A stretch of DNA of 64,000 nt, taken from NCBI RefSeq assembly GCF_000177635.2, contig NC_014836.1, forward strand, positions 725,501 through 789,500. The letters run 5' to 3'. The notes under the pieces were generated by a model that did no database searches, was not told the origin of the DNA, and saw only the letters and a list, made by a program, of their open reading frames with translations. Below are positions 842-57,749 of the stretch, in pieces; within the stretch, counting starts at the first letter, position 1; each line of letters starts with the position of its first letter. The position numbers and the translations under genes are program-made. The DNA comes from Desulfurispirillum indicum S5. GTDB taxonomy: Bacteria > Chrysiogenota > Chrysiogenetes > Chrysiogenales > Chrysiogenaceae.

Positions 842-1786
<945 letters not shown>

Positions 1787-1796
1787 GGAGGACGAA

Positions 1797-3242
1797 ATGT
1801 CAGTTGTAGATAAAGAACAATCCCAGGCGCTGATCGAGGAGATTCTGCAGGAATATCCGGAAAAGGCCCTGAAAAGTCGCAAGAAGCATATGACGGTGGT
1901 GGAGCCGGGCGCAGATGAAAAGTGCGGCGTCAGCTCCAACCGTAAGAGTATTCCCGGTGTCATGACCATTCGCGGCTGCGCCTACGCTGGCTCCAAGGGC
2001 GTGGTGTGGGGGCCGGTGAAGGACATGCTGACCATCAGTCACGGCCCGGTGGGTTGTGGCCAGTACTCCTGGGCCACCCGCCGCAACTACTATACCGGCA
2101 TCACGGGCGTTGACTCCTTCGGTGCCATGCAGATCACCTCGGATTTCCAGGAGCGCGATATCGTCTTCGGCGGCGACAAGAAGCTGGAGAAGCTCGTGGA
2201 TGAGCTGGAAGAGATGTTCCCCCTCAGCCGTGGCATCAGCATTCAGTCCGAGTGCCCCATTGGCCTGATCGGTGATGACATTGAGGCGGTCTCCCGCAAA
2301 AAGGCTGAGGAAATCGGCAAGCCCGTTGTTCCCGTGCGCTGCGAAGGTTTCCGTGGCGTGAGTCAGTCCCTTGGCCACCACATTGCCAACGATGCTCTGC
2401 GCGACTGGATCTACGAAAAAGATGTTCCCGCCAGTGTGCAGGAGGCCGGTCCCTACGATGTGGCCCTGATGGCGGATTACAACATCGGTGGTGATGCCTG
2501 GAGCTCTCGCCGCATTCTGGAGGAGATGGGCCTGAACGTGATCTCCCAGAGCACCGGCGACAGCACGGTGGCGGAACTGGCCAACACGGCCAAGGCCAAG
2601 CTGGTGCTGCTGCACTGCTACCGCTCCATGAACTACATCGCCCGTTATCTGGAAGAGAAGCACAGTGTGCCCTGGACCGAGTTCAACTTCTTCGGTCCCA
2701 CCCAGATTTTCAAGAGCATGCGCAAGATCGCGTCCTACTTTGACGAGAGCATCCAGAAGCGCACCGAAGAGCTGATCGAAAACAAGTACAAGCCCCTGCT
2801 GCAGAGCGTGGTGGACAAGTACAAGTCCCGCCTGGAAGGCAAAAAAGTGATGCTCTATGTGGGTGGCCTGCGCCCCCGCCACACCATCCCCTGCTTCAAG
2901 GATCTGGGAGTGGAAGTGATGCTGACTGGCTATGAATTCGGCCATGGCGACGACTACCAGCGCACCATGGAGTATCTGGATGACACGACCATCGTGGTGG
3001 ACGACATGAGTGAGTTCGAGATGGAAAAATTCCTCTCCAAACTCAAGCCCGACCTCTTCGGCTCCGGGGTCAAGGAAAAATACCAGTGCCAGAAGGCCGG
3101 AGTTCCCTTCCGCCAGATGCACTCCTGGGATTATTCCGGCCCCTACCATGGCATCGAAGGCTTTGCCATCTTCGCCCGCGACATGGACATGGCCATCAAT
3201 GGGCAGGTGTGGAAGCATATCAAGGCACCCTGGAAGAGCTGA
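1797..3242 (+). CDS. nifD: Nitrogenase MoFe protein alpha subunit
   Basis: The 481-residue product carries all alpha-subunit ligands at positions nearly identical to the Azotobacter protein: P-cluster cysteines Cys61, Cys87 and Cys153, and the FeMo-cofactor ligands Cys274 (LLHCYRS) and His442 (QMHSWDYSG). This marks it as the molybdenum type, not VnfD or AnfD. ATG at 1797 follows GAGGAGGACGAA directly; an upstream in-frame start at 1746 would overlap nifH and lacks a ribosome site. It would pair with NifK to make the alpha2beta2 enzyme, but nifK downstream is interrupted. nifD itself looks fully functional. Confidence 0.98.
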
Positions 3243-4555
3243 TTCTGCCAGATGAGTGCCGCAGTTTCACCATGACAACGAACCCCCTGAAAGGATAACA
3301 CCATGAGCCCCCAGAAATCCGCCTGCATGGACCATGTGGACCTGTTCCAGAGCGAGCAGTACCAGGACATGTTCGCCCGCAAGAAGGCCTATGAAAACGC
3401 TCATTCGCCTGAAGAAGTGAACCGGGTACTGGAATACACCAAGACCAAGGAATACCAGGAAAAGAACTTCGCTCGCGAAGCCCTCGCCATCAACCCCCTC
3501 AAGGCCTGCCAGCCGCTGGGTGCGCTCTACGCCGGGATCGGCTTTGCCAATACCCTGCCCTATGTGCACGGTTCCCAGGGCTGTGCCGCCTACTTCCGCT
3601 CCCACTTCTCCCGTCACTTCAAGGAGCCCTTTCCAGCGGTATCCGACTCCATGACGGAAGACGCGGCGGTATTTGGCGGTCACAACAACATGTACCAGGG
3701 CCTGAAAAACGCCTATGCCCTCTACAAGCCGGAGATGGTCGCCCTGTGCACCACCTGCATGGCCGAAGTCATTGGTGACGACCTCAGCTCCTTCACCAAA
3801 AACGCCAAGGATCAGGGCGACATTCCCCAGGAGCTGCCCGTACCTGCTGCCCATACGCCATCCTTTGTGGGTTCCCACATCACTGGCTACGACGCCATGA
3901 TGCTGGCCATTCTCTCCTCCATGGGTGAGAAGCGTGAGACCAAGAGCGAAGCCATCAACGTGATCCTGGGCTTTGACACCTACCTGGGCAATTACAGCGA
4001 AATCAAGCGCATCTTCAAGCTCTTCGGAGCCGAGTGCGTGATCCTCAGCGATCCCACCGAAGTGCTGGATTCTCCCACCGATGGCGAGTACCACATGTAC
4101 CGCGGCGGCACCAGCATAGAGGACCTGAAAAACGCTCCCAATGCCCGTGGTACGCTTATTCTGCAGAAGTACGCCCTGCCAAAAACCACCCAGCTCATCA
4201 AGGGTGAGTGGGAGCAGGAAGTGCGGGTGGTTAGCCCCATCGGCATCAAGGGCTCCGACGAACTGATCATGGCCATTGCCGAACTGACCGGCAAGGAAAT
4301 ACCCGAAGAGCTGAGCCTGGAGCGCGGGCGCTTCATCGACGCCATTGCCGACTCCTACTACTGGATCTTTGGCAAAACCTTCGCCATCAATGCCGACCCC
4401 GACCTGGCCTATGGCCTGACCCGCTTCGTGCTGGAGCTGGGCGGCGAAGCCAAGCACGTGCTCGTCACCAACTCGGTCAAGAAGTGGGAGAAGGACTAAA
4501 GTGGGCCCAGTTGTCCAGACATATTTCGAGGAAGTTTAAGTTTTCTTATTGCAGC

Positions 4556-5437
4556 CTATGCCGCAAGCTTTTCCTCCTTTATTCTAAATACTGACATGTA
4601 CATTTTGTCTGGTGTTCTGTAGTCAAGAGACTGATGAAACCTTCTGCTATTGTAGAAGGTGAAGTATCGCTTTACTCCTTCCTTGAGTTCGGTCATGTTC
4701 TCATAGCATTTGATATAGATGTTTTCGTATTTCACACTGCGCCAAAGGCGCTCTACGTAGACATTGTCAAGGGCTCTGCCTTTGCCGTCCATGCTGATTC
4801 TGATGCCGTGACTCTTGAGTCTTTGCGTAAATGCCTCTGAGCTATATTGGCTTCCCTGGTCGGTGTTGAATATCCCAGGGACTCCATAGCGTCTGATGGC
4901 TTCATCCAGTGCTTCGAGGCAAAAGCAGGTATCCATGGTGTTGGAGATGCGCCAGCTCAGTACTTTGCGGCTGAACAGATCTATGATAGCTGTCAGGTAC
5001 ACCGTCTTGGCGCCAAGCTTCAAGTACGTGATATCAGTGGCCCAAACCTGGTTGGGAAGCCAGATATTCAATCCTCGCAGCAAGTACGGATACTTCTTGT
5101 GCTGCTTGTTGGCCCGTGAAAGATTGGGTTTGGGGTAAATCGCACGCAGCCCATGCTTGTGCATAATGCGCCGCACCTGTTTGGAACTCACGGCCATATC
5201 ATGTTCCTCATTGAGCTGTATGGCTATCTTGCGATAACCGAAGGTGGGAATGTCTTGCAGCACCCTGAGAACAACCTTCAGTATTTCAAGATCAGATTCC
5301 TCCAGCGCCGACGAACGTGACTGGTAATAGTAGGTCGAGTGGCTGATGCCAAGCAACTTGCACTGCATCCGTATGCTCAGGTTTTTATGGCCTGGCTCTA
5401 TGGCATTTTTGGCTCGTGACCGTAGAGTTGCACATAC
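4556..5437 (-). CDS. IS3-family transposase OrfB (DDE integrase domain)
   Basis: This is the catalytic half of the IS transposase. The rve-type DDE core shows Asp in VWATDITYL, Asp in FNTDQGSQY and Glu in [13 protein letters not shown]. An N-terminal HTH_21-like segment has [11 protein letters not shown]. The first ATG in frame is at 5368, but the frame stays open back to the A-run at 5438-5446 and the upstream codons encode the conserved lead-in ([19 protein letters not shown]). It is therefore most likely made as an OrfAB fusion by -1 frameshifting. The reading frame appears intact, so the element could be active. Confidence 0.9.
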
Positions 5438-8539: not shown

Positions 8540-10054
8540 TCAGCGATAACGGTCCATAAAGCGTTTCAGCGTCTTCAGGTCCGCCTGATACTGCATGCTG
8601 TCGGAGGCGCTCTCCAGGGAGTCAATGCGATAGTGGGCGCCGATGTTCTTGCGCCGGCGCAGGGCCCCATTCATGATGGCTGCGCCGAGCATTGCGTAGG
8701 GGGTGTCCATGGCGGCGATGGTTCGCATGCCCTCTTCCAGCAGTTCACGGGAGCGGATGATACCCGCTTTCTTCCACATGGTCTTCTGCAGGTCTGCGGG
8801 GATACTGCCGAAGGTGTCGCTGATGGGGCTGTGGTCTTCCTGGAAATCCCGGAGGGGGTTTTGGAGGCTGTAACTGTCTTCAAGGGCGCTGATGGCGGCG
8901 CGCTGGCCGAAGACGAGCCCTTCGAGGATGGAGTTGGAGGCCAGGCGGTTGGCGCCGTGAACGCCAGCGCAGGCAACTTCGCCTGCGGCGTAGAGGCCGG
9001 ATACGTGGGTGCGGGCGGTGATGTCGGTCAGTACCCCTCCCATGGCGTAGTGGGCGGCAGGGGAGACGGGGACGGGCTCGCGGGAGATGTCCACGCCATA
9101 CTGCAGGCAGGTTTCGTATATGGTGGGAAAGCGTTTCTGGACAAATTCCTCACCCAGGTGGCTCACCTGGAGGGAGATTTTCTGCCCGGTCTTTTCCATT
9201 TCGAAATGGATGGAGCGGCTTACCACATCGCGGGGTGCCAGCTCCAGCATGGGGTTGTAGCGTTCCATGAAGCGTTCTCCCGCGTGGTTGAGCAGGATGC
9301 CGCCTTCGCCACGCATGGATTCCGAGAGCAGGAAGGGTGGGCAGCCGTCGATATTGAGGGCGGTGGGGTGGAACTGCACGAACTCCATATCGGCCACATG
9401 GGCACCGGCCTGCAGGGCCAGGATGATGCCGTCGCCCGCTGCCACGTCAGGATTGGTGGTCAGTCCGTAAATTCTGCCCAGTCCACCTGTGGCCAGGATG
9501 ACGCCCTTGGCCGTGGCCTGATAGCCTTTGCCATCCTTGATGAATCGCACCCCGTAGACGTGATTGTCGTGGTGCAGCAACTCCATGGCACGGGCGTTTT
9601 CCCAGAGGGTTATTTCATCCATGGCGGCCGCGCGGGCGGTCATGGCGCGCTGGATTTCATGGCCGGTGGCGTCACCGTTGGCATGGATGATGCGGTTCAG
9701 GCTGTGGGCCGCCTCGCGGGTCAGCAGCAGGCCCCCGGTGGCTTCGTCGCGATCAAAACAGGCGCCCCAGTCGATGAGTTTCTGGATGAGGCCAGGTCCG
9801 GAGCGTACCAGGTACTCAACGGCTGAGCGGTTGTTGAGGTGGGCTCCTGCGTTGAGGGTGTCCTCCAGGTGAAGTTTGAAACTGTCGCTGGGGTCCAGCA
9901 CTACGGCGACGCCACCCTGGGCGTAGTTGGTATTTGTCTCTTTGTGGAATGATTTATTGAGAACCAGTACCCGGCAGCCTTCCTCGGCCAGGGTCAGGGC
10001 CGCAGTCAGGCCGGCGCCACCGCCGCCAAGGACGATAAAATCGAAAGGTTCCAT
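8540..10054 (-). CDS. nadB: L-aspartate oxidase
   Basis: NadB oxidises L-aspartate to iminoaspartate, the first step of de novo NAD synthesis, using FAD with oxygen or fumarate as acceptor. The 504-residue protein has the FAD dinucleotide motif GGGGAGLTAALTLAEEG near the start, the flavin/substrate segment TNTNYAQGGVA, the HxxxD-like region, the catalytic-site HPTALN and SESMRGEGG motifs, and the C-terminal second FAD patch GLYAAGEVACAGVHGANRLASNSLEG-type sequence. Arg and His active-site residues of the succinate dehydrogenase flavoprotein superfamily are present. nadA and nadC are not adjacent. Confidence 0.96.
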   Translation of the reverse strand: MEPFDFIVLGGGGAGLTAALTLAEEGCRVLVLNKSFHKETNTNYAQGGVAVVLDPSDSFKLHLEDTLNAGAHLNNRSAVEYLVRSGPGLIQKLIDWGACFDRDEATGGLLLTREAAHSLNRIIHANGDATGHEIQRAMTARAAAMDEITLWENARAMELLHHDNHVYGVRFIKDGKGYQATAKGVILATGGLGRIYGLTTNPDVAAGDGIILALQAGAHVADMEFVQFHPTALNIDGCPPFLLSESMRGEGGILLNHAGERFMERYNPMLELAPRDVVSRSIHFEMEKTGQKISLQVSHLGEEFVQKRFPTIYETCLQYGVDISREPVPVSPAAHYAMGGVLTDITARTHVSGLYAAGEVACAGVHGANRLASNSILEGLVFGQRAAISALEDSYSLQNPLRDFQEDHSPISDTFGSIPADLQKTMWKKAGIIRSRELLEEGMRTIAAMDTPYAMLGAAIMNGALRRRKNIGAHYRIDSLESASDSMQYQADLKTLKRFMDRYR

Positions 10055-10104
10055 GGTGTTGTGCCTCTTTCCCCGCAGGAAATGGGTAGAATTGAAAACG
10101 GGGC

Positions 10105-10133
10105 ATTATAGGGCAAGTTGTGCTACGCCTCAA
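10105..10133 (-). promoter_or_regulatory. Sigma-70 promoter of nadB
   Basis: On the minus strand TTGAGG, 17 bases, and a perfect TATAAT, about 50 bases upstream of the nadB ATG. Confidence 0.75.
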
Positions 10134-10221
10134 GCACAAGCGCAGTTTTTGATGCTGCGCCCAGGGGAAATGGATGCGCAGGCGCGGGGCAGCGTCACCA
10201 GGGGTGCGTTTGCGCAGCTGG

Positions 10222-10407
10222 TTACAGGTTCGCCATGATTGCCAGGAAACCGTGGATCATTGCCAGCGCCATGATAACGAAGCCAACCTGGCGGTGAAGT
10301 CCGAAGGGAACCTTGATGCGGCGCGTTCCACTGAGCAGTTGAAAGGCCAGCAGCGCCAAGATGAGAATTCCCAGCAGCAGAATAATGGAAATACCGGCTA
10401 TGGTCAT
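10222..10407 (-). CDS. 61-residue membrane protein with two helix histidines
   Basis: I do not recognise a named family. The protein is two predicted membrane helices (about 4-25 and 41-60) with a basic loop (GTRRIKVPFGLHRQ). His38 and His52 lie 14 positions apart at the ends of the second helix, a spacing like that of bis-heme helices in cytochrome b proteins; heme binding is an inference. It follows the superoxide-reductase-like gene at 10432 by 24 bases on the same strand, with GGAGATC before its ATG, so the two are probably co-transcribed. It could be a redox or anchoring partner of that exported protein. Confidence 0.7.
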   Translation of the reverse strand: MTIAGISIILLLGILILALLAFQLLSGTRRIKVPFGLHRQVGFVIMALAMIHGFLAIMANL

Positions 10408-10431
10408 GCAGATCTCCTCAGGAAGAGTCGT

Positions 10432-10827
10432 TCAGGAGTCGGTAACGGTAATGGTGTGAAAGGCTTTGCCGTCGCTGCCGTGGAGGTTGCAGTTGCCTTC
10501 TGCCACGAGCTGTACGGTCTGCTGCACTTCCAGGGTCGTTTCCAGGGTGAAGTTTTCACTGGGAGGCCGGTTAAAGGCCGAGAATTCCCAGCGGGCGATT
10601 TCCTGGTCATCGGCTTTCAGGAGTACCCAGTTGGTGAAGTGGATAAAGTTGTTGCCCCGGTGGGTGACGTGCAGTGTGATGGTGATGGCAGCGCCCCGGA
10701 GGGCACGGTCGGGGGCGCTCAGGCTGACGGAGGTGCGGTTTGCCAGCGCCAGGGCAGGGGGGTGGGCAATGGTGGCCAGGGCAGAGGCCGCCAGGGTTTT
10801 CATGAAATCGCGACGTCTGAGGTTCAT
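10432..10827 (-). CDS. Tat-exported class II superoxide-reductase-like (SORL) protein
   Basis: The 131-residue protein begins with a twin-arginine signal (MNLRRRDFMKTLAASALA). The mature part resembles the desulfoferrodoxin/neelaredoxin fold: HVTHRGNNFIHFTNW gives His53, His56 and His63, and GNCNLHG gives Cys113 and His116. These are plausible equivalents of the His4-Cys iron centre of superoxide reductase. ATG at 10827 is chosen because GGAGGAAAC precedes it and the Tat motif follows at once. The upstream in-frame codon at 11013 would add 62 residues unlike a signal peptide. SORL proteins of this class also occur near Sox-type genes, so carriage of a sulfur or other redox ligand is an alternative to superoxide reduction. 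Confidence 0.8.
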   Translation of the reverse strand: MNLRRRDFMKTLAASALATIAHPPALALANRTSVSLSAPDRALRGAAITITLHVTHRGNNFIHFTNWVLLKADDQEIARWEFSAFNRPPSENFTLETTLEVQQTVQLVAEGNCNLHGSDGKAFHTITVTDS

Positions 10828-10971
10828 GGATGTTTCCTCCAGTGGTTCAGGGGGAACGGCAGGATTGCGACGACGTATTTCAGGAAAAAATATCAGAATT
10901 CTCGCTCCGATGCACGGACAGCGTGCGGAAAATTTCGGGAACTGCCAGCAGGGACAGCGCGTAAAATCCTT

Positions 10972-11000
10972 TTGAAAAATATTGTCCATGCTGCTAATCT
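10972..11000 (+). promoter_or_regulatory. Sigma-70 promoter of alr-mlaEFD
   Basis: TTGAAA, 17 bases, TAATCT, ending 38 bases before the alr GTG start. It is the only good match in the 210-bp divergent region. Confidence 0.55.
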
Positions 11001-11037
11001 GCCCATTTGCCATTCATTTCTCCGAACGGAAGAGACT

Positions 11038-12114
11038 GTGAAAACCATATTCTGCGAAATTCATCTGCCCCATATCCGTCATAATTTTCGCCTGCTGCAG
11101 CAGCGGGCTGGACATACCCGAATTGTCGGAGTGGTCAAAGCCGACGCCTATGGCCACGGCGATGTTCCCGTGGCACTGTGCCTGCAAAGCGAGGGCTGCA
11201 CCCATTTCGCGGTGGCGAGGGTCCACGAGGGCATAAAACTGCGCAAGGCGGGTATCCATGGGGATATCCTGATCATGAGCGGCTCATTCCCCAACGAGTT
11301 TGCGGCCCTGCGCGAGTTCAATCTGACCACGGTGGTGTACTGTGAAGAGAACATTGAAGAGATGGTGCGCGAGGGCATCAGCGTTCCCGTGCACATCAAA
11401 ATAAATACCGGCATGAATCGCCTGGGCTTTCGTCCCGATCGGCTGCCCTGGGTCTATCGCACCCTGACCGAGGCGGGTTTTGCCGTGCGCGGCATCATGA
11501 CCCACATGGCCTGTGCCGACGAACCGGGTTCACCCACTATCGGCGCCCAGGAAAATCTCTTCTACCGCAGTCTGGAACCATATTTTCAGGAGGGAATGCT
11601 GGGACACCTTTCCAACAGCGCGGGGATTTTCACCCTGGATAATCTCGGTTCCCTGGCTCGTCCGGGCATTATGCTCTACGGGGGAAACCCCTTTGCCGAC
11701 AAGACGGTTGACTTGCGGCCAGCCATGACCTTCAAAACGAAGATCCTCCAGGTGAAGCGGGTTTTCCCCGGTGAGGGCATCTCCTACGGCCACAGTTTTG
11801 TCGCCGACCGGGAAATGCTTGTGGCGACAGTGGCTGCCGGGTATGCTGATGGCTATTCCCGCCTGCTCAGCAACAAGGCCCGCGTCCTGGTAAATGGACA
11901 GTATGCCCCCCAGGTGGGGCGGGTGTGCATGGATATGAGTATGGTGGATGTGACCCACATTCAGCCCGCCCGCGGGGATGAGGTGGTGCTCTTCGGTGAA
12001 CAGCGTGGGCAGTGCATATACGCCTCCGAGCTGGCCGAACTCATGGGAACCATCGACTATGAGGTTTTCTGCGGGATTTCTCCGAGGGTGAAGCGGATTT
12101 ATACGGGAGCCTAG
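11038..12114 (+). CDS. alr: Alanine racemase
   Basis: Alr is a PLP enzyme making D-alanine for peptidoglycan. The 358-residue product has the PLP lysine Lys34 in VVKADAYGHG, the HIKINTGMNRLGF barrel motif, LGHLSNSAG, and the catalytic tyrosine near residue 250 in GISYGHSF. The C-terminal beta domain has AAGYADGY and GRVCMDMSMVD. The start is taken as GTG at 11038, preceded by GGAAGAGAC; the open frame runs far upstream but those codons are not racemase-like. It is followed after 3 bases by mlaE, so envelope lipid transport and wall precursor supply share a transcript. Confidence 0.96.
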   Translation: MKTIFCEIHLPHIRHNFRLLQQRAGHTRIVGVVKADAYGHGDVPVALCLQSEGCTHFAVARVHEGIKLRKAGIHGDILIMSGSFPNEFAALREFNLTTVVYCEENIEEMVREGISVPVHIKINTGMNRLGFRPDRLPWVYRTLTEAGFAVRGIMTHMACADEPGSPTIGAQENLFYRSLEPYFQEGMLGHLSNSAGIFTLDNLGSLARPGIMLYGGNPFADKTVDLRPAMTFKTKILQVKRVFPGEGISYGHSFVADREMLVATVAAGYADGYSRLLSNKARVLVNGQYAPQVGRVCMDMSMVDVTHIQPARGDEVVLFGEQRGQCIYASELAELMGTIDYEVFCGISPRVKRIYTGA

Positions 12115-49959: not shown

Positions 49960-50256
49960 ATGAACGTCGAAGGACTTGGTGGCGGCGGTCTGCGGAAGTC
50001 AGTTGTCAGGCTTCCTGATGATGACCGGGCTACCGCAAAGAAAACTGACGATTCTGCGGCAGGAAGCAGGCAGGGAGCAGCCATTAAAGACGAAATTGCT
50101 GTTGAAAACCGCTTGGCGGGAATGTCTACTATTCGTGATGTGGATATCGCCAAAAGCCTGCTGGAAAATACCATTAAGGATATCGTATCCAATGGCAGGC
50201 AGGCCCTTGACGCCTACAGGGATGCCTCCGGCAGCAGCCTGAGTAAACTTCTGTAG
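49960..50256 (+). CDS. Small flagellar-associated protein with a flagellin-C-terminus-like motif
   Basis: A 98-residue protein I cannot name. A glycine-rich, charged first half (about 1-48) is followed by ENRLAGMSTIRDVDIAKSL and a long helix to the end. The IRDVDIA phrase and helix closely recall the D0 domain at the C-terminus of flagellin (SRIRDVDMAEE type), which FliS and FliC use for binding and polymerisation. It has its own strong ribosome site (AAGGAGGAATGCC) and follows fliS. It may be a minor filament component or a FliS decoy; both are inference. Confidence 0.75.
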   Translation: MNVEGLGGGGLRKSVVRLPDDDRATAKKTDDSAAGSRQGAAIKDEIAVENRLAGMSTIRDVDIAKSLLENTIKDIVSNGRQALDAYRDASGSSLSKLL

Positions 50257-50494: not shown

Positions 50495-50522
50495 AAAGAG
50501 CAGGATCTGCTCTTTTTTTTTG
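50495..50522 (+). terminator. Terminator of the fliD operon
   Basis: AAAGAGCAG pairs with CTGCTCTTT around a GAT loop, followed by a long T run, 28 bases after the last stop. Confidence 0.94.
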
Positions 50523-50544: not shown

Positions 50545-50572
50545 TTGTCTTATGTCGTTTCTCTGTTATATT
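50545..50572 (+). promoter_or_regulatory. Candidate promoter for the phosphatase-STAS-cheR unit
   Basis: TTGTCT, 16 bases, TATATT in an A-T-rich window directly after the terminator. A second -10-like TATAAT lies at 50574-50579 without a good -35. No sigma-28 or sigma-54 match was seen. Confidence 0.45.
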
Positions 50573-50639
50573 TTATAATTGTATCAACGTGTTCATGAAA
50601 CCTTTTCTGAGGCAATGAATTTTTCACAGGGTGTGTGGT

Positions 50640-52283
50640 ATGGATGGGCAAAGCTGGCTTGACCTCTTTCAACAAACATTTGATATGATTGATGAAGGAA
50701 TCTTTATTGTACAGAAGGCTGGCTATAAAATTGTCTATGCCAATCGCAAGGCGATCAGGATTTTTGACCTGAAATCCAAGGACTATATTGGAAAAAACTG
50801 TCACTATATCCTCTTTAACAAGCTTACCGCCTGCGCGGACTGCCCCATCGACAGCATGTATCAGACCATGACGCCGCAGATCCGGCATATCGACTACACG
50901 GATCACCGTTCATTTCAACGTAACCTGCTTTGCAAATACAGTCCTCTTGACCAGAACTACTTCCTTTTGAGCGTGCTGGATCAGACCCAGGAAAAGAGTC
51001 TTATTTCCACAATTACTTCGCAGGCCAAGGAAATGAAGGCCAAGAATGTGGTCCTGAAGCTTCGTCGGCAGGAGCTGGAAAAGAAAAAAACCTTCCTCTC
51101 CAGTATTCTCAATGGGGTCAAGGATGGCATCATGGTGGTTGATCGCTCGTACAATGTGGAGATGCACAACCAGACGCTGCTTGATGTCACTCAGATGGAA
51201 TCCGGATTTGATGGCGTTCCCTGCTACCGGGTGTATCAGCGCAACTCGCCCTGTGATGACTGCCCGATGTTTGACAGCTTTTCCGGGAAAATGGTTTCTG
51301 CCCGCCAGGTCATCGATCGCGAAAGTGGCGACGAGAAGAACCTGACTGTCTATTTTTCCACTGCCGATAATTTTCTCATTGAAACGGTCAGGGATACCAC
51401 CCGTGAAAAGCGCCTGCTGACGATGATTAAGGGGCAGCAGGAGCAGCTGTTTATTGCGAATCGTCACCTTGAAGATGCCAATAATGAAATCACCCAGATG
51501 TTCACCAAGCTCAAGGAAACCTATGAGCAGCTGGAGGTTGCCCAGGCCCATATTGATGAAGAGATGCGCCAGGTTGAGGAGCTCCAGCAGAGTCTGCTGC
51601 CAAAGGCGTTGCCCAGTAACTCCCTGTACGATATAGCCTCGTTCTATACTCCTGCCGACAAGGTAGGCGGTGATTACTATGATTTCATTGAGCTCAGTAA
51701 TGGTGAGCTGGGCGTTCTGGTTGCCGATGTCAGTGGTCATGGTTTGCCTGCCGCGGTTATCATGGCAATGACGAGGGTGGTTCAGCGAGCGCTTTCCTAT
51801 GGTGAGTCGAGCCCGGCAGCCACTCTTGATAAAGTGAACAGCATGCTCTGCGAGAATATCTACACCAATGACTTTGTTACGATGTTTTATATGATTCTGT
51901 CGGCGGACGTTGCTCCGGCGCGTTACTCCTCAGCTGGGCACAACCCGCTGTTGCAGTATTGTGCTTCCACTGGAGATATTATCCGTTATACCAGTAAGGG
52001 CTTTTTTCTGGGGGCTTTTGATATCGGTGGGTACGAAGAGGATACGATTTCATTTGCTCCTGGCGATATTCTGCTGCTCTACACCGATGGACTTGTGGAG
52101 GCCATGAATATTCGCAAGGAGCAGTACGGCTATGACCCGGTTGAGAGAATTCTGCAGGAAAATCACGGCAGCAGTGCTGCACAAATCGTTGAAATTTTGC
52201 GGCAATCTGTTATGGAGTTCGTGGATGGTGTCCCTCTCGGGGATGATATGACTCTGGTTGTCGTCAAAATAAATGAAACATGA
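50640..52283 (+). CDS. PAS-PAS-PP2C (SpoIIE/RsbU-like) serine phosphatase
   Basis: The 547-residue protein has two PAS-like domains (about 8-120 and 150-265), a coiled coil (about 270-325) and a PP2C SpoIIE domain. Metal-site motifs are GGDYYDF, VADVSGHG, SSAGHNP, LYTDGLVEA and GDDMTL. Each PAS carries a cysteine set, Cys54/Cys65/Cys68 (C-x10-C-x2-CP) and Cys195/Cys205/Cys208 (C-x9-C-x2-CP), which could bind metal or sense redox state. Such phosphatases dephosphorylate STAS proteins in partner-switching; two STAS genes follow directly. ATG at 50640 is chosen over a GTG at 50631. Confidence 0.92.
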   Translation: MDGQSWLDLFQQTFDMIDEGIFIVQKAGYKIVYANRKAIRIFDLKSKDYIGKNCHYILFNKLTACADCPIDSMYQTMTPQIRHIDYTDHRSFQRNLLCKYSPLDQNYFLLSVLDQTQEKSLISTITSQAKEMKAKNVVLKLRRQELEKKKTFLSSILNGVKDGIMVVDRSYNVEMHNQTLLDVTQMESGFDGVPCYRVYQRNSPCDDCPMFDSFSGKMVSARQVIDRESGDEKNLTVYFSTADNFLIETVRDTTREKRLLTMIKGQQEQLFIANRHLEDANNEITQMFTKLKETYEQLEVAQAHIDEEMRQVEELQQSLLPKALPSNSLYDIASFYTPADKVGGDYYDFIELSNGELGVLVADVSGHGLPAAVIMAMTRVVQRALSYGESSPAATLDKVNSMLCENIYTNDFVTMFYMILSADVAPARYSSAGHNPLLQYCASTGDIIRYTSKGFFLGAFDIGGYEEDTISFAPGDILLLYTDGLVEAMNIRKEQYGYDPVERILQENHGSSAAQIVEILRQSVMEFVDGVPLGDDMTLVVVKINET

Positions 52284-52302
52284 GTATCCCAAGGAGTAGG
52301 TA

Positions 52303-52629
52303 ATGAACAAAACAGTGAAAAACGGCGTTCTCGTCTATCAACTCGCCGGTGAAATTGAGGCCAAGGCCGGAAAAGCCTTGAGCAGCCAGATCAAGACAGA
52401 CCTGGGGTCAGTAGCACCCAGCGCTTTGCTGAACTTTCAGGATGTCACCTACATGAACAGTGCTGGGCTCCGTGAGCTGATTGATATTGTCAAGTACTGT
52501 AACAAGTCGGGGCATAAGCTGAAAATCAGCAACCTTCCCGAGGACATACGGGAGATGTTTGAGTTTACGAATCTCACCAGAGTTTTCGCGATTTTTGACA
52601 CGGAATCCCAGGCCCTGGCTTCTTACTGA
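52303..52629 (+). CDS. STAS-domain anti-sigma-factor antagonist-like protein
   Basis: This 108-residue single STAS domain has the phospho-acceptor pattern YMNSAGLREL (Ser53), as in SpoIIAA/RsbV. It is the expected substrate of the PP2C phosphatase encoded 19 bases upstream and would bind a partner kinase or anti-sigma factor when unphosphorylated. No RsbW-like kinase is adjacent, so the partner is elsewhere or is replaced. AAGGAGTAGGTA precedes the ATG. Confidence 0.92.
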   Translation: MNKTVKNGVLVYQLAGEIEAKAGKALSSQIKTDLGSVAPSALLNFQDVTYMNSAGLRELIDIVKYCNKSGHKLKISNLPEDIREMFEFTNLTRVFAIFDTESQALASY

Positions 52630-52720
52630 AAAGCTCGCGATTATTGGTGACATATCCGGCTCAGCGCTTTGTCGGCGCCACGCATGATCAGTTGCGATAC
52701 AACGATACGAGGGGGGTGTT

Positions 52721-54157
52721 ATGGAGTTTTCCATTGAGCGTTCGGGCAATACGGCCACTGTTCTTATCAAGGACGCTTTTCTAGGTGAAAACGCCAAGGG
52801 TCTGCTGGCGGCGATAGAGGAGCTGGGGACAATTGATTTGCTCATCATGGATTTTTCCCAGTCAAACTATATTAACAGTTCGGGTATTTCGGCACTGATT
52901 GAAATCTACAAGCAGACCAGAGCCCGTAAATACATGGTGCGACTGACGGGTCTTTCCCGGGAAATCCGCGATTTTTTCTTTCACGCACGGCTTGATGAGT
53001 TTTTTGCCATCGAAGATGAACTCGAAGGCCTTGGTATTGAGCAGTACGTTGAGCTTTTGCAGGATGATGAGAAGCGCGACCTGGCAATCGACAAACTGGT
53101 GGAGATGGATGACGCAGCGGTACTGCCAATGCGCAATGCGATTCATTCGGAAAACGAGCTGATTCGCTCTGGTGCCATTACCGTGTTGGGGAAGCTGGAT
53201 GATTCCTACATGGCAAGTCGTTTCAGTGACATTTTGCTTCACGATGAGTCTTCTTTCGTGCGTCAGGCAGCTGCCTATGCACTTGGGTTTTTGCTGGATG
53301 ATCAAACGGTGCCAGCGTTGATCAGCGCCTTGGAAGATAACTTTTCCGAAGTTGCTGAAGCTGCCGCTGCCAGCCTGAGTATATTCGGCTCCGATGAAGT
53401 TCGCGAGCAGCTTACCGGAAAACTTTTCCATGAAAATCCGCGGGTGCGTGGAGTCGCCGCCCAGGCTTTGGGAATGATTTCCGATAAACGTGTTCACAAG
53501 TCTCTGGAGAGTCTTGTGGGTGATGCTGACCCCTGGGTTCGCGTGTGCGCTGTCCAGGCTCTGGGCTGGATGCGCAGCCACCCCTCGGTAACGGTGCTCA
53601 TAGAAGCCTTGGGTGACAACGACATGCGTGTGCGGGAAGCGGCAGCCTCAAGCCTTGGCCGCATTAAGTCGCCAGATTCCATTGAGCCACTTGGGAAAAG
53701 TCTTTTCGACGAAAACATGTGGGTCGCCTACTTCGCGGCCAAAGCACTGGGTCAGATCGGTGATAAGCACGCCATTGCTCCGCTTATGCATGCCTACAAG
53801 ACCACTTCCCACGAAAACATTAAAATCGCTGTTCTGTACGCTCTGCGCGAGTTGACCGCAGTTGAAGCCAGTGAAGTGTATCTGGATGCATTCCGTTCAC
53901 GCAATGAAGATCTTCGCAAAGAAGCACTCATGTGTCTTGGGAAGGTTTTTCATCAGGATCTGCCTGCTATTTTGCGCAAGGCGCTCAAGGATATCAACTG
54001 GACTGTCCGTTATGCGGCGCTGGAAATCATCACGCTCCACCAGTTGCGCGACATGGAGGAGGATCTGAAGCTCTGCCTGGCCAATGAGTCTGAAGACATT
54101 GTGCGTAATCAGATTGCGAAAGCACTGACTCATCTTGCGCGCAGGAGTCAGCCATGA
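52721..54157 (+). CDS. STAS domain fused to HEAT repeats
   Basis: The 478-residue protein begins with a STAS domain (about 1-110), acceptor-like INSSGISALIE with Ser53. It continues with about ten HEAT/PBS-lyase-like repeats (about 125-470; units such as RGVAAQALGMISDKRV, RVCAVQALGWMRSHPSV, REAAASSLGRIKSPDS). The fusion would let a partner switch control a protein-binding solenoid. A GAGGGGGGTG site precedes the ATG. It overlaps cheR by ATGA, implying a joint role with the methyltransferase. Confidence 0.9.
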   Translation: MEFSIERSGNTATVLIKDAFLGENAKGLLAAIEELGTIDLLIMDFSQSNYINSSGISALIEIYKQTRARKYMVRLTGLSREIRDFFFHARLDEFFAIEDELEGLGIEQYVELLQDDEKRDLAIDKLVEMDDAAVLPMRNAIHSENELIRSGAITVLGKLDDSYMASRFSDILLHDESSFVRQAAAYALGFLLDDQTVPALISALEDNFSEVAEAAAASLSIFGSDEVREQLTGKLFHENPRVRGVAAQALGMISDKRVHKSLESLVGDADPWVRVCAVQALGWMRSHPSVTVLIEALGDNDMRVREAAASSLGRIKSPDSIEPLGKSLFDENMWVAYFAAKALGQIGDKHAIAPLMHAYKTTSHENIKIAVLYALRELTAVEASEVYLDAFRSRNEDLRKEALMCLGKVFHQDLPAILRKALKDINWTVRYAALEIITLHQLRDMEEDLKLCLANESEDIVRNQIAKALTHLARRSQP

Positions 54158-54996
54158 GCATACTGACGGCACAGGTCATCAAACTCACCGATGAAGAATA
54201 CAAGCTGATTCGGGATATGGTCTACGAGTACTGTGGCATCTACTTCCAGGAGCACAAAAAGTACATCATAGAAAATCGCCTTTCGCGTAGACTCAAGCAA
54301 CTGAATTTTACGTCATTTAAGGACTACTACTACTTCCTCAAGTATGATCGGAAAAAAGACGAAGAATTAGTTGAGATCATGAATCTGCTGACCATTAACG
54401 AGACCTATTTTTTCCGTGAGCTTGGTCAGCTCAAGCATATGATCAGTGTGGCGATTCCTGAGCTTGTGAAGTCCAAAAGTGATCGTGTGCTGCGTATCTG
54501 GTCGGCGGCCTGCTCTACGGGCGAAGAACCCTACAGCATCAGCATCCTGCTTAAAGACAGTGGAGTGCTGCCCGCGGGGTACCGCGTGGAGATCTATGGC
54601 ACGGATCTCAGTCAGGATGCTGTTGCCAAGGCAAAGGCTGCGAAATACCGCAAGATTTCCTTCCGCAGTACCGAACCTCAGTACATGAAATATTTTCGCG
54701 AGCAGGATGCGGAGTTTACCGTGAACGCGGATGTGCGCCTGCCAGTGAAAATTGACCGGGGCAATCTGCTGTTGCCGGCGGATACCGGTCGTTACCGGAA
54801 TATGGATATTGTGTTTTGTCGTAATGTCCTGATCTATTTTGACAAGGAGTCTAAACGCAAGGTGATTGAGAACCTGGCAAATGCCTTGCAGCCACAAGGG
54901 TATCTCTATATTGGCCATTCTGAGACACTTTTTGGCATCAGTGACGCCTTTCGCATGAATAATTTCGGTGAAGGGATCGTCTATATGAAGAAGTAG
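54154..54996 (+). CDS. cheR: Chemotaxis protein methyltransferase CheR
   Basis: CheR methylates glutamates of chemoreceptors using SAM. The 280-residue protein has the N-terminal helical domain (YKLIRDMVYEYCGIYF, ENRLSRRLKQL) and the SAM domain with NETYFFRE, IWSAACSTGEEPYSI, EIYGTDLSQDAV, DIVFCRNVLIYFD and GYLYIGHSETL. It overlaps the STAS-HEAT gene by ATGA, not a receptor or cheB. Confidence 0.94.
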   Translation: MSILTAQVIKLTDEEYKLIRDMVYEYCGIYFQEHKKYIIENRLSRRLKQLNFTSFKDYYYFLKYDRKKDEELVEIMNLLTINETYFFRELGQLKHMISVAIPELVKSKSDRVLRIWSAACSTGEEPYSISILLKDSGVLPAGYRVEIYGTDLSQDAVAKAKAAKYRKISFRSTEPQYMKYFREQDAEFTVNADVRLPVKIDRGNLLLPADTGRYRNMDIVFCRNVLIYFDKESKRKVIENLANALQPQGYLYIGHSETLFGISDAFRMNNFGEGIVYMKK

Positions 54997-55039: not shown

Positions 55040-55366
55040 ATGTCCCTCAATATCGGCCCCATAAATCACATGCAGATACTTGCCAAAATCAATGTAGCTG
55101 AGCGTCTGCATGACCAGATGGAGAACCGCCAGCGCTTCGTGATAGAAAAAATCATTGCCGAAAAGGTTCAGGAGAACGAGAAAGAGCGGATGCAGACGGT
55201 CAAGGAGCTGGAGGAAACGGAAAAAGCCGGTCCCGGTGATCGCGATGCCCGTGAAAAAGATGAACGCAATCCCAGGCAGAAGAATAAAGGGCAAAATCAG
55301 CCTGACAGTGGTACTATATCCGAAGAAAATCGAGGCCGCGATGGACATATTGATTTCCTGGCCTGA
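55040..55366 (+). CDS. Small charged hypothetical protein
   Basis: A 108-residue protein with no family I recognise. The first half is helical (MQILAKINVAERLHDQMENRQRFVIEKIIAEKVQENEKERM). The second is highly polar and probably disordered. GGAGGTGAACG before the ATG is a strong ribosome site, and the same-strand spacing (43 bases after cheR, 17 before the next gene) supports co-transcription. It might be an adaptor in the signalling or flagellar set. Confidence 0.65.
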   Translation: MSLNIGPINHMQILAKINVAERLHDQMENRQRFVIEKIIAEKVQENEKERMQTVKELEETEKAGPGDRDAREKDERNPRQKNKGQNQPDSGTISEENRGRDGHIDFLA

Positions 55367-55383: not shown

Positions 55384-56166
55384 ATGCTGTCACCCGGAAC
55401 GCAAATTGAGCTGGCACTGCGCACGGTTCAGGGTCTTGAACTCTGGTGCTCTGCCACGGTAGATAAGGTCAGCGAATCCGTGGTTCTGGTGCGCCTGAAT
55501 ACACAGATTGCCATGGACTACGGGAATATCTCCAGCAGTGAAGACTATCCGGTGACGGTGAATGTCATAGACGGTGAGGTTCTCGTGACCCAGGAGGGGC
55601 GGATCGCCGGCAAGCTGCGTGACGAAGTCTATGGAATACGACTCGTGGGCGAAGCGACCCGCCATGAATATACTTCCATAGAAGATCGCATCAAGGTTCA
55701 CTACAAGCCACTTTCTGAGCAGGAGTACTATGCCACCCGCCCGGAAATGCGCAGCTATCGGACACCTCAGCCCAACATGCCAAAATACCTTGATGCCAAT
55801 GATGATATTCCCCAGTCGCTGATGAAATTCATTGGCGATATAAATTATAAGCTCGACCGTATCCTGAACCTTTTGGAGTCCCATTCTTCGGAAAAACTGG
55901 TGATCAAGGATTTTTTTCACACCAGCCGTGTGGGTGGAGGGTTTCTGATTGGCGAAAAAGGTGAAGTTGGCAGCGCCTATCTTCTTCAGATCAAAATTCC
56001 CATCTACCCCTACCACGAGTTCTACGCCATTGGCAAAGGCGTTCCCTTCTCCGGGGGAGCGACGGGAATCCTCTTTACCTATATCAGTGAGGATGACCGC
56101 GAAGAGCTTATCAAGTATGTCTTTGAGCGCCAGCGGGAAATTCTGAAGTCCAAAAGGAAGCAGTAA
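55384..56166 (+). CDS. Two-domain protein resembling a degenerate YcgR-N / PilZ protein
   Basis: This 260-residue protein has a beta-rich first part (about 1-80; PGTQIELALRTVQGLELWCSATVDKVSESVVLVRL) like the YcgR N-terminal flagellar brake domain. A second part has RHEYTSIEDRIKVHYKPL and IKDFFHTSRVGGGFLIGEKGEVG in places where PilZ has RxxxR and D/NxSxxG. Those c-di-GMP residues are not clearly kept, so binding is doubtful. The chemotaxis/flagellar surroundings support a motility role. Its stop overlaps the next ATG. Confidence 0.6.
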   Translation: MLSPGTQIELALRTVQGLELWCSATVDKVSESVVLVRLNTQIAMDYGNISSSEDYPVTVNVIDGEVLVTQEGRIAGKLRDEVYGIRLVGEATRHEYTSIEDRIKVHYKPLSEQEYYATRPEMRSYRTPQPNMPKYLDANDDIPQSLMKFIGDINYKLDRILNLLESHSSEKLVIKDFFHTSRVGGGFLIGEKGEVGSAYLLQIKIPIYPYHEFYAIGKGVPFSGGATGILFTYISEDDREELIKYVFERQREILKSKRKQ

Positions 56167-56648
56167 TGTTTCACAGCCCTGTATTCCTGTCTGTGATGAT
56201 TCTGGCGCTGTGCTTTTTCTTTGTGGTGGTGCTTTACCTGCTCTGGGCCTTCGGGAAAATGCGCCAGTCCATGGGGCACTATTCGCTCTATGAGCTTGAA
56301 AGCCTTCATGACTCCCTGGAGGCGCTTCTGATCAAAGCCGATGAATCTACTCTCAACCTCACCGATGAAATCAAAAAACAGGAATTTATACTGAAACAGC
56401 TTCTGGATCTTGTGGACAAGCGCAAGGCTGAGCTGGAAGCCCTTATTCAGCAATCCGATGATGTGCAGCAGGCGGCAAGAACGCCCAAAACCGAAGATAT
56501 CAAAGAAGATGTGGCCTTCTATATGCAACGGGGCTTTACGCCACAGGAGATCGCCAAGAAACTCGGCAAAACCGTCAGCGAAGTCACCCTGCTGTGCCGG
56601 GTGCTCGAATCGCAGCAGGCCACAGGGAATTCTGGTAAAGAAGGCTGA
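56166..56648 (+). CDS. Membrane-anchored coiled-coil protein with a C-terminal HTH-like segment
   Basis: This 160-residue protein has an N-terminal membrane helix (about 6-29), a coiled coil (about 40-95) and a C-terminal helix-turn-helix-like tail FTPQEIAKKLGKTVSEVTLLCRVLE. The layout recalls small DUF2802/DUF6115-type proteins encoded among flagellar and chemotaxis genes; I cannot confirm membership. It overlaps the previous stop by one base (TAATG). Confidence 0.7.
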   Translation: MFHSPVFLSVMILALCFFFVVVLYLLWAFGKMRQSMGHYSLYELESLHDSLEALLIKADESTLNLTDEIKKQEFILKQLLDLVDKRKAELEALIQQSDDVQQAARTPKTEDIKEDVAFYMQRGFTPQEIAKKLGKTVSEVTLLCRVLESQQATGNSGKEG

Positions 56649-56654
56649 TCAGCG

Positions 56655-57749
56655 GTGGATATTCTCCCCTCCCTTGTTCGCCAGCTGGAGACACTGCAGC
56701 AGACCCACAATGTCCGGCTGAGTCCGGGTGAGAAGCTGGATATCCTGGTGCGGGGGATGCGCAGCTCCCATGAGGTGTCACTTTTCCTGCGCGGACAGGA
56801 GGTTACCGCGCGAACTGAGACACCGTTGCAGCCGGGCCGATATCAGGTGCTGGTGCAGTCTCTGCAGCCAGCTCTGACACTGAAAATCCTTCCTCAGCTG
56901 CCCACGGCGGTGCCGCCCTCCCTCAGTGCGCTGCCAACTCCCAGTCTGCTTTCCAGCCATCCTCTGGCAACACTCCTGCAGCTTCCGGCAGTCTCTCCCT
57001 CACTTCCCCTTCAGCTGCCCGGAGGGCAACTGATTCCCGAAGAAGCCAGCCTGCTTCGTGGGAGCCGGCTCTCACTGGAAGGCTTGATTCGGGACCTGCA
57101 GGCGCCTGGTATGACGGCGAAACCCGCAGTTGCCAGAAGTACCGCCGAGCAGCTTCAGCATCTGAGCGTTCACAGCGGCATGCTGATGGAAAATCACCTG
57201 CTGACCGGGAGTCGTCCGGTTGTGCAGGATCTGAAGTTTCAACTGCTTTTACTGGCCGGGCGCTATGCCAACAGTGAGCGACTCGTTGACACTATCCGCC
57301 AGCGTCTGCAGTTTCTGACGCGGGAGCAGGTGGCGAATCTCATCCTGAACCAGGACGGGATATTTTTGGTGGAGATTCCCCTGGATACCGCCGATCAGCT
57401 CAGGCGCCTGCGTATGCGCCTGCAGAAACGCAAAAAAGAGGCGCGGGGGATTGACTCGGATATCCTTTCCCTGTACATGGAGTTTTCCCGTTTGGGGGAA
57501 ATCAAGGTAAACTGTTTTCAGCGCGATATGGGAATTGATATTGTGGTCTTTTCCAATGAGCGCAAAACCGTACAGTCCCTGGAGCAATCCCTTGAGGAGC
57601 TCAGGGGAGCCATCGAAATGGTTGTGCGTCGACCGGTGCGCTGTGCCGTGCACTATCGCGAGGAGAACCTCTTTCAGGATTTTGACGAAAACCTCGTGTT
57701 GATCCGTGCCATCAAATCCTGGCCGTCCGATGATGAAGAGCACCAGTAA
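56655..57749 (+). CDS. Hypothetical protein with a FliK-like C-terminal domain
   Basis: This 364-residue protein has a proline/serine/leucine-rich middle (about 75-130) and a C-terminal domain (about 215-350) with LGEIKVNCFQRDMGIDIVVFSNERKTVQSLEQSLEELRGAIE. That pattern resembles the FliK hook-length-control C-terminus (LGxIxVxI ... L ... L). GTG at 56655 is preceded by AAGAAGGC. If correct it would be a secreted or export-gate-binding ruler-like protein, but it lacks the usual length of FliK and the call is tentative. Confidence 0.6.
   Translation: MDILPSLVRQLETLQQTHNVRLSPGEKLDILVRGMRSSHEVSLFLRGQEVTARTETPLQPGRYQVLVQSLQPALTLKILPQLPTAVPPSLSALPTPSLLSSHPLATLLQLPAVSPSLPLQLPGGQLIPEEASLLRGSRLSLEGLIRDLQAPGMTAKPAVARSTAEQLQHLSVHSGMLMENHLLTGSRPVVQDLKFQLLLLAGRYANSERLVDTIRQRLQFLTREQVANLILNQDGIFLVEIPLDTADQLRRLRMRLQKRKKEARGIDSDILSLYMEFSRLGEIKVNCFQRDMGIDIVVFSNERKTVQSLEQSLEELRGAIEMVVRRPVRCAVHYREENLFQDFDENLVLIRAIKSWPSDDEEHQ

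Follow-up and report, generated by a model that had tools for sequence, protein, structure and literature searches.

The locus examined here raises the question of what a partner-switch phosphatase controls when its gene stands in line with that of a chemoreceptor methyltransferase. In Desulfurispirillum indicum S5 (phylum Chrysiogenota), a motile, arsenate-breathing organism, Pfam assignments and the list of open reading frames (ORFs) place four genes in the order PAS-PAS-PP2C (SpoIIE), STAS, STAS-HEAT and CheR on the forward strand. This block lies in a stretch of 64,000 nucleotides, the window, which spans positions 725501-789500 of a single-contig genome of 2,928,377 bases (G000:C1). An earlier note, made from the window's sequence, had proposed a redox- or metal-sensed phospho-switch acting on a protein scaffold that controls receptor methylation or the flagellum. 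The context of the block gives good support to a role in motility control. The reading favoured here, which is plausible and tentative and falls somewhat short of probable, is that the block is a partner-switch module devoted to chemotaxis and ancestral to the Chrysiogenota/Deferribacterota phylum, with the STAS-HEAT protein as a putative scaffold to the chemotaxis machinery, most likely to CheR.

The first gene (50640..52283, with an alternative GTG start at 50631) encodes a PP2C phosphatase of the SpoIIE/RsbU type, the N-terminal part of which carries two PAS domains. PF07228 (SpoIIE) is matched at 9.5e-46 (156.6 bits against a cut-off of 25), both PAS domains are detected, and Pfam finds neither a receiver nor a HATPase domain in the protein. 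The acidic residues of the PP2C domain (D348, D351, D366, D486, D538 and D539) are invariant in the alignment of relatives. Each PAS domain carries three cysteines that are invariant among the 20-21 aligned relatives in which the domain is intact: C57, C68 and C71 in the first (C-x10-C-x2-C) and C198, C208 and C211 in the second (C-x9-C-x2-C-P), numbered from the GTG at 50631. All six are kept in five further relatives as well. The earlier note's mention of cysteine-bearing PAS domains is thus right, and the case is stronger than it had stated. A search of solved structures with the PAS region gave no relative, and the literature on CxxC-PAS domains did not settle between a metal, an Fe-S cluster and a disulphide.

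Nineteen nucleotides further on lies the gene of a STAS-only protein of the anti-anti-sigma type (52303..52629), which matches PF01740 at 6.4e-15 and passes TIGR00377 (61.7 bits against a cut-off of 53.45). Its presumed phospho-acceptor, Ser53 (codon 52459-52461), stands in the motif NSAG; relatives read NSSG or NSAG with the serine at the known acceptor place, invariant in the alignment except in Flexistipes. The protein matches the solved RsbV, SpoIIAA and TM1442, and the serine is conserved in its alignment with RsbV and TM1442. After a gap of 91 nucleotides follows the STAS-HEAT fusion (52721..54157), in which a STAS domain (residues 1-102; 2.3e-10) precedes a HEAT solenoid (HEAT_2, 2.6e-56). 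This second STAS domain is profile-related to the STAS protein of the block and fails TIGR00377 at 34.3 bits. Among 25 homologues its three invariant residues are D44, S53 and K64, with Ser53 (codon 52877-52879) in the context NSSG in Chrysiogenaceae and mostly QSK elsewhere. In the AlphaFold2 model (pLDDT 92) the N-terminal part takes up a STAS fold, where Ser53 opens helix 53-68, and leads into a HEAT superhelix that resembles designed alphaRep proteins and the scaffold A subunit of PP2A in Foldseek searches; judged from the model, this likeness indicates a scaffold and nothing beyond.

The fourth gene (54154..54996) overlaps that of STAS-HEAT by ATGA (54154-54157), as had been read from the sequence before, and encodes a CheR methyltransferase (CheR_N 1.3e-14 and CheR 2.1e-53; 54.1 and 181.1 bits against a cut-off of 27). 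It is orthologous to the CheRs that occupy this place across the phylum, which are set apart from the main D. indicum CheR. Directly 3' of the main CheR gene lies another ORF (L025:8846-9730) for a histidine-kinase-like ATPase protein of 294 residues (HATPase_c 3.6e-27), the H-box region of which reads KTEFRTPISS, with the phospho-acceptor histidine seemingly gone.

The conservation of this arrangement was followed through 290 genomes, of which 51 belong to the phylum (here the Genome Taxonomy Database (GTDB) phylum, taken as Chrysiogenota plus Deferribacterota) and 239 lie outside it. STAS-HEAT is present in 43 of the 51, at identities from 68% to about 25%, and nearly all matches reach the STAS domain. 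By comparison of coordinates, SpoIIE is encoded upstream of STAS-HEAT and CheR immediately downstream of it in 38 of these 43 genomes, and CheR is the direct downstream neighbour of STAS-HEAT in 40. A gene order kept in this many genomes argues that the block is no product of chance, and bears out the conserved co-occurrence that the earlier note had left to a genome search. Among the 239 other genomes there was no STAS-HEAT relative covering the STAS domain; the matches listed begin at query residue 68 or later and are therefore essentially HEAT matches. A search of genome contigs with the single D. indicum protein gave no match (one peptide pattern, not exhaustive), while an alignment of 14 N-terminal regions matched Deferribacterales under the same limit, with two weak Zixibacteria matches in which the STAS domain is mostly or wholly uncovered. 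When plasmids were searched with the STAS part, one weak match appeared, to a Deferribacter STAS protein. STAS-HEAT thus appears, from these sequence searches, to be confined to the Chrysiogenota/Deferribacterota phylum.

Both other genera of Chrysiogenaceae keep a run from fliD and fliS through the block to PilZ-like, small membrane-protein and FliK-like genes, with the STAS gene left uncalled by a simple gene finder in one genome (G002). In Deferribacterota the block lies downstream of FliM, FliN, CheY, CheZ and CheA, which makes it part of the core motility operon there; the main CheA of D. indicum is encoded elsewhere (L025), and the block sits with flagellar genes. The Deferribacterota che operons also hold two conserved proteins of unknown function between CheA and SpoIIE (L067:12889-14656 and L078:5355-7181), one with a weak OmpA-family match, the other about 324 residues long and hydrophobic at its C-terminal end; beside the D. 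indicum block, neither was recognised. Mirror-tree correlations of 0.89-0.94 among the four block proteins lacked an outside control and were not used as evidence.

The block predicts a missing kinase. There is no RsbW-type kinase in the window, and a search of the whole genome with PF13581 placed the nearest stand-alone RsbW-type genes at distances of about 142 kb, 213 kb and 290 kb, the first accompanied by a phosphatase and a STAS protein of its own. As the best candidate, we propose a receiver-RsbW protein encoded near CheW (L027:4769-5689, minus strand), with 306 residues, a receiver-like N-terminal half and a HATPase_c_2 match of 56.7 bits. This kind of protein is nearly phylum-wide, and in all three genera of Chrysiogenaceae its gene comes directly after those of HD-GYP and CheW. 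In seven near-complete genomes of genus g13 (G022, G023, G028, G030, G031, G033 and G036) there is no HATPase_c_2 match besides it at E up to 1e-8, and no CheR besides that of the block at E up to 1e-10. The motifs of its ATPase domain, E180-x3-N184, D240-x-G-x-G and GRG, are invariant in 13 sequences, with N, G1 and G2 boxes intact, while the N-terminal half is poorly conserved and falls below the receiver cut-off (27.3 bits against 30.2). A profile of the family matches LvrC of Leptospira (PDB 9qih) over nearly its full length at E 6.7e-32, followed by RsbW and SpoIIAB, and LvrC is matched by fold search as well. The search did not find the protein in G038 or G040, two genomes with FliS and without CheR, SpoIIE and STAS-HEAT.

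Two other sources of the kinase were considered and set aside. The RsbW of the set at about 630-635 kb (L023) has a STAS partner of its own, the solo RsbW-type protein of 134 residues in L024 is not encoded beside a chemotaxis gene, and the seven g13 genomes yielded neither kind. The L023 set is complete in itself (L023:4540-8648), with a phosphatase of 1097 residues that has a multi-pass, transporter-like N-terminal part, and long SpoIIE proteins of this sort recur across the phylum. Two large D. indicum proteins (G000:C1:665459-667132 and 1639825-1641489) each combine an RsbW-type ATPase with a SpoIIE domain, possibly a kinase and a phosphatase in one chain. L024 also contains, at about 8800-11200, short-period repeats that look like CRISPR arrays in translation (VHCRIGSSE and SLPHRQLRK recurring).

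Six genes of the sigma-70 family are present in the D. indicum genome and none of them in the window: one RpoD by size and sequence, one that passes the FliA/WhiG cut-off, three that look like extracytoplasmic-function (ECF) sigma factors, and one RpoS-like gene below every equivalog cut-off shown. No SigB/SigF/SigG-type sigma factor passes its cut-off among the models scanned, nor does the block of any genome examined contain a recognisable sigma or anti-sigma gene. FlgM was not recognised in the block, and no search aimed at FlgM was made; the gene content of the block loci includes neither an RsbT-type kinase nor a sensor-STAS RsbR. The statement that no RsbW-type kinase or sigma factor lies nearby is therefore true for the window. 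As to a paired RsbW and sigma factor elsewhere, which would have pointed to ordinary sigma regulation, no sigma factor passes a model of the SigB/SigF type, but RsbW-type kinases do exist in trans.

On the favoured reading, the two cysteine-bearing PAS domains would report the redox or metal state of the cytoplasm to the PP2C domain, which would dephosphorylate Ser53 of the STAS protein, and the receiver-like-RsbW-type ATPase kinase encoded elsewhere next to CheW would rephosphorylate it. Unphosphorylated STAS would switch partner between this kinase and STAS-HEAT, and the STAS-HEAT scaffold would link the switch with the chemotaxis machinery, CheR being the likeliest target, such that receptor methylation or motor behaviour would be tuned without a sigma factor. 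The stronger form of this idea is that serine phosphorylation acts on chemotaxis directly and without transcription, with the redox-sensing PP2C and the CheW-associated kinase setting the docking of STAS on STAS-HEAT/CheR or the motor switch, and the redox state of the cytoplasm resetting methylation or bias; this may be so, and we regard it as possible rather than probable.

Natural partial losses bear on which of these parts belong together. Flexistipes sinusarabici is non-motile (PMC3236037), and its genome (G018) and that of a near relative (G012), counted here as one evolutionary event, are without FliS, CheR and the SpoIIE of the block; the sole PP2C left in them is of the other, 1074-residue kind. 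The STAS gene still adjoins that of STAS-HEAT in both, with DKEG in place of NSSG and thus without the acceptor serine, while the serine of STAS-HEAT is kept. The joint loss of SpoIIE and the STAS serine links the phosphatase to that serine. The flagellated genus g14 keeps SpoIIE, STAS with its serine and CheR and has lost STAS-HEAT, in the place of which lie about 670 bases without a long open frame. In G047 (76% complete) no SpoIIE was found, and STAS-HEAT and CheR remain. Judged from these sequences, only SpoIIE and the STAS serine seem strictly to co-occur among the partial-loss cases. CheR has a long branch where STAS-HEAT is lost, an apparent acceleration that was not used, since SpoIIE, STAS and CheZ also evolve faster there.

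Several of these observations weigh against the favoured reading. The Flexistipes and g14 patterns together make STAS-HEAT and CheR separable: persistence of the STAS/STAS-HEAT pair without CheR points to a role of STAS-HEAT that is independent of CheR, and persistence of SpoIIE and STAS in g14 points to an output of theirs that is independent of STAS-HEAT. D. indicum itself has three CheRs besides that of the block and two stand-alone RsbW-like proteins besides the receiver-RsbW candidate. The candidate is present in both Flexistipes and g14, so its pairing with the block relies on elimination and on a CheW neighbour found in Chrysiogenaceae only, and its relative LvrC is described as a receiver-regulated anti-sigma factor (PMC13269768). 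The proposal of the earlier note accordingly stands in part: the tie to chemotaxis and the flagellum, the gene order, the kept catalytic and acceptor residues and the co-loss of the STAS serine speak for it; redox or metal sensing by the PAS cysteines and the control of CheR by STAS-HEAT, two separable proteins, are putative parts of it.

Among the other explanations, the one that survives best is a transcriptional switch of the HsbR-HsbA or LvrC kind, in which an RsbW-type kinase or FlgM would be the anti-sigma factor, STAS would free FliA (sigma-28) or an RpoS-like sigma factor, and CheR and STAS-HEAT would be merely co-transcribed or accessory. HsbA of Pseudomonas does so beside CheR, CheW, FlgM and a PilZ gene (PMC5085249; PMC8256260), there is a likeness between the candidate kinase and LvrC, the D. 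indicum genome encodes both FliA and an RpoS-like sigma factor, and SpoIIE and STAS persist where STAS-HEAT is lost. Such a switch, however, leaves unexplained the near-strict keeping of STAS-HEAT between STAS and CheR, and no block examined includes a recognised sigma or anti-sigma gene; it is considered unlikely, if a serious contender. More improbable is that the motor switch or CheY is the target of the HEAT solenoid, with CheR only a neighbour. The precedent is OE2401F, deletion of which locks archaeal rotation and which binds CheD and a CheF (PMC2666748), and such a target would suit the position of the block, which has PilZ-like and FliK-like genes as neighbours and in Deferribacterota lies 3' of FliM, FliN and CheY. 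Yet what comes immediately after STAS-HEAT in 40 of 43 genomes is CheR rather than FliM or CheY; D. indicum is among them, with the remainder of its che operon at another place.

A partner switch of the general stress type that was trapped in a flagellar/chemotaxis operon and held there by co-expression, with no direct functional link, would account for parts that are separable in three lineages and for a STAS/STAS-HEAT pair that survives in a non-motile organism. It is quite improbable, as order is kept over phylum-scale distances, even where block and main CheA are apart in Chrysiogenaceae, and Flexistipes lost SpoIIE and the STAS serine together with CheR and the flagella. Least likely of all is a reversed control, in which CheR would methylate glutamates in STAS-HEAT or in a coiled coil of the phosphatase, thereby setting the switch, much as happens upstream of a PP2C/RsbV/RsbW switch in Bacillus cereus, where the signalling helix of RsbK is methylated by RsbM (PMC4574943): SpoIIE seemingly has long interdomain helical linkers, as read from its sequence, but the CheR of the block, being the only one found in seven genomes with flagellar genes, must serve receptors there, and G047 keeps STAS-HEAT and CheR with no SpoIIE found.

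In the literature compared, the targets of partner switches are for the most part sigma factors or as yet unidentified. If the direct serine-phosphorylation switch is true, a whole phylum would be wired in this way by default. A phylum-wide version in the chemotaxis operon, with a HEAT scaffold of its own beside CheR, would offer a defined protein set for asking whether serine phosphorylation feeds into chemotactic adaptation, where CheR sets receptor gain, and the three natural partial losses are ready-made comparisons.

The remaining features lie at the ends of the block, all on the plus strand unless stated otherwise. Between fliD-fliS and the phosphatase gene is a terminator-like hairpin (50495..50521) with a 9-pair stem, AAAGAGCAG/CTGCTCTTT, followed by T6, which is a consensus match from a scan that gave about as many matches in shuffled as in real DNA. 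A weak promoter-like site with an extended -10 (TTGTCT-16-TATATT, 50545..50572) follows, likewise a consensus match only. This candidate pair suggests that the block may be transcribed separately from fliD-fliS. Downstream of CheR, a small conserved protein (55040..55366) has no Pfam match and keeps its position and a related sequence in Deferribacterota. It and its counterparts (L071:11287-11589 and L116:9478-9774) are mostly of low complexity and have a hydrophobic C-terminal end (GHIDFLA, GVDFTV, QDITV) that resembles a possible short docking motif.

Next comes a PilZ-like protein in a YcgR-type position (55384..56166), assigned by synteny; the D. indicum copy has no Pfam match, and its positional homologue in L078 passes the PilZ cut-off. 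A small membrane-anchored protein (56166..56648) is syntenic across the phylum with Pfam matches all below cut-off, and a putative FliK-like hook-length control protein (56655..57749) matches Flg_hook weakly, below the cut-off (E=0.025), and is syntenic in Chrysiogenaceae. Upstream, 3' of fliS, a 98-residue protein (49960-50256) resembles the C-terminal D0 region of flagellin in its C-terminal half (NCBIfam flagellin Hag model, E 3.8e-4) and is kept at 72% and 55% identity in two sister genera. Near the start of the window, an IS3-type transposase-like ORF (4556-5368, minus strand) stands right after apparent nitrogenase-type genes (851-4499).

The novelty suggested in the earlier note, which knew of no description of this exact set, is upheld by the literature searched, in which no publication was found that combines a STAS domain, HEAT repeats and chemotaxis, while one contains the first two of these terms; a close functional precedent that it did not name exists in HsbR-HsbA. 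Several known systems share single features with the block. OE2401F is a HEAT_PBS protein from the chemotaxis region of Halobacterium salinarum that is needed for taxis and switching (PMC2666748); unlike STAS-HEAT, it has no STAS domain, serves an archaeal flagellum and has CheD and CheF as partners. The RsbM-RsbK-RsbY system of Bacillus cereus likewise combines a methyltransferase with a PP2C partner switch, but there the methyltransferase acts on a sensor kinase, with no HEAT protein and no link to chemotaxis (PMC4574943). The stressosome (RsbR-RsbS-RsbT) has a STAS-only and a STAS fusion protein in one operon, whereas the D. indicum fusion joins an N-terminal STAS domain to HEAT repeats instead of a sensor to STAS, has no adjacent RsbT-type kinase and is accompanied by a PAS-PP2C phosphatase in place of RsbX.

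Closer likenesses are found among the partner switches proper. LvrC (PDB 9qih) and the candidate kinase both join a receiver or receiver-like domain to an RsbW-like Bergerat ATPase; that half of the D. indicum protein is below the Pfam cut-off, and its neighbours are CheW and HD-GYP. RsbU-RsbV-RsbW and SpoIIE-SpoIIAA-SpoIIAB correspond in the PP2C phosphatase, the acceptor serine of STAS after a D/N position and the RsbW-type kinase candidate, and differ in that the D. indicum kinase is outside the operon, no SigB/SigF-type sigma factor is present, a second STAS domain is fused to HEAT and the context is that of chemotaxis. The nearest described arrangement is HsbR-HsbA of Pseudomonas beside cheR. 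The HptB-HsbR-HsbA genes of P. aeruginosa (PA3345-PA3347) lie with CheR (PA3348), a CheW-like gene (PA3349), flgM and a PilZ gene (PA3353), and HsbA, which in its dephosphorylated form is a binding partner of FlgM, has a further interaction with HsbD, a cyclase (PMC5085249; PMC8256260). Both sets place a PP2C phosphatase and a serine-phosphorylated STAS protein beside cheR, cheW, flagellar and PilZ genes, and that of Pseudomonas controls swimming, swarming and chemotaxis. HsbR, however, is a response regulator with phosphatase and kinase activity in one protein, whereas the D. indicum phosphatase is PAS-linked and without a kinase; and where no HEAT protein has been described in the Pseudomonas set, the D. 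indicum block has STAS-HEAT.

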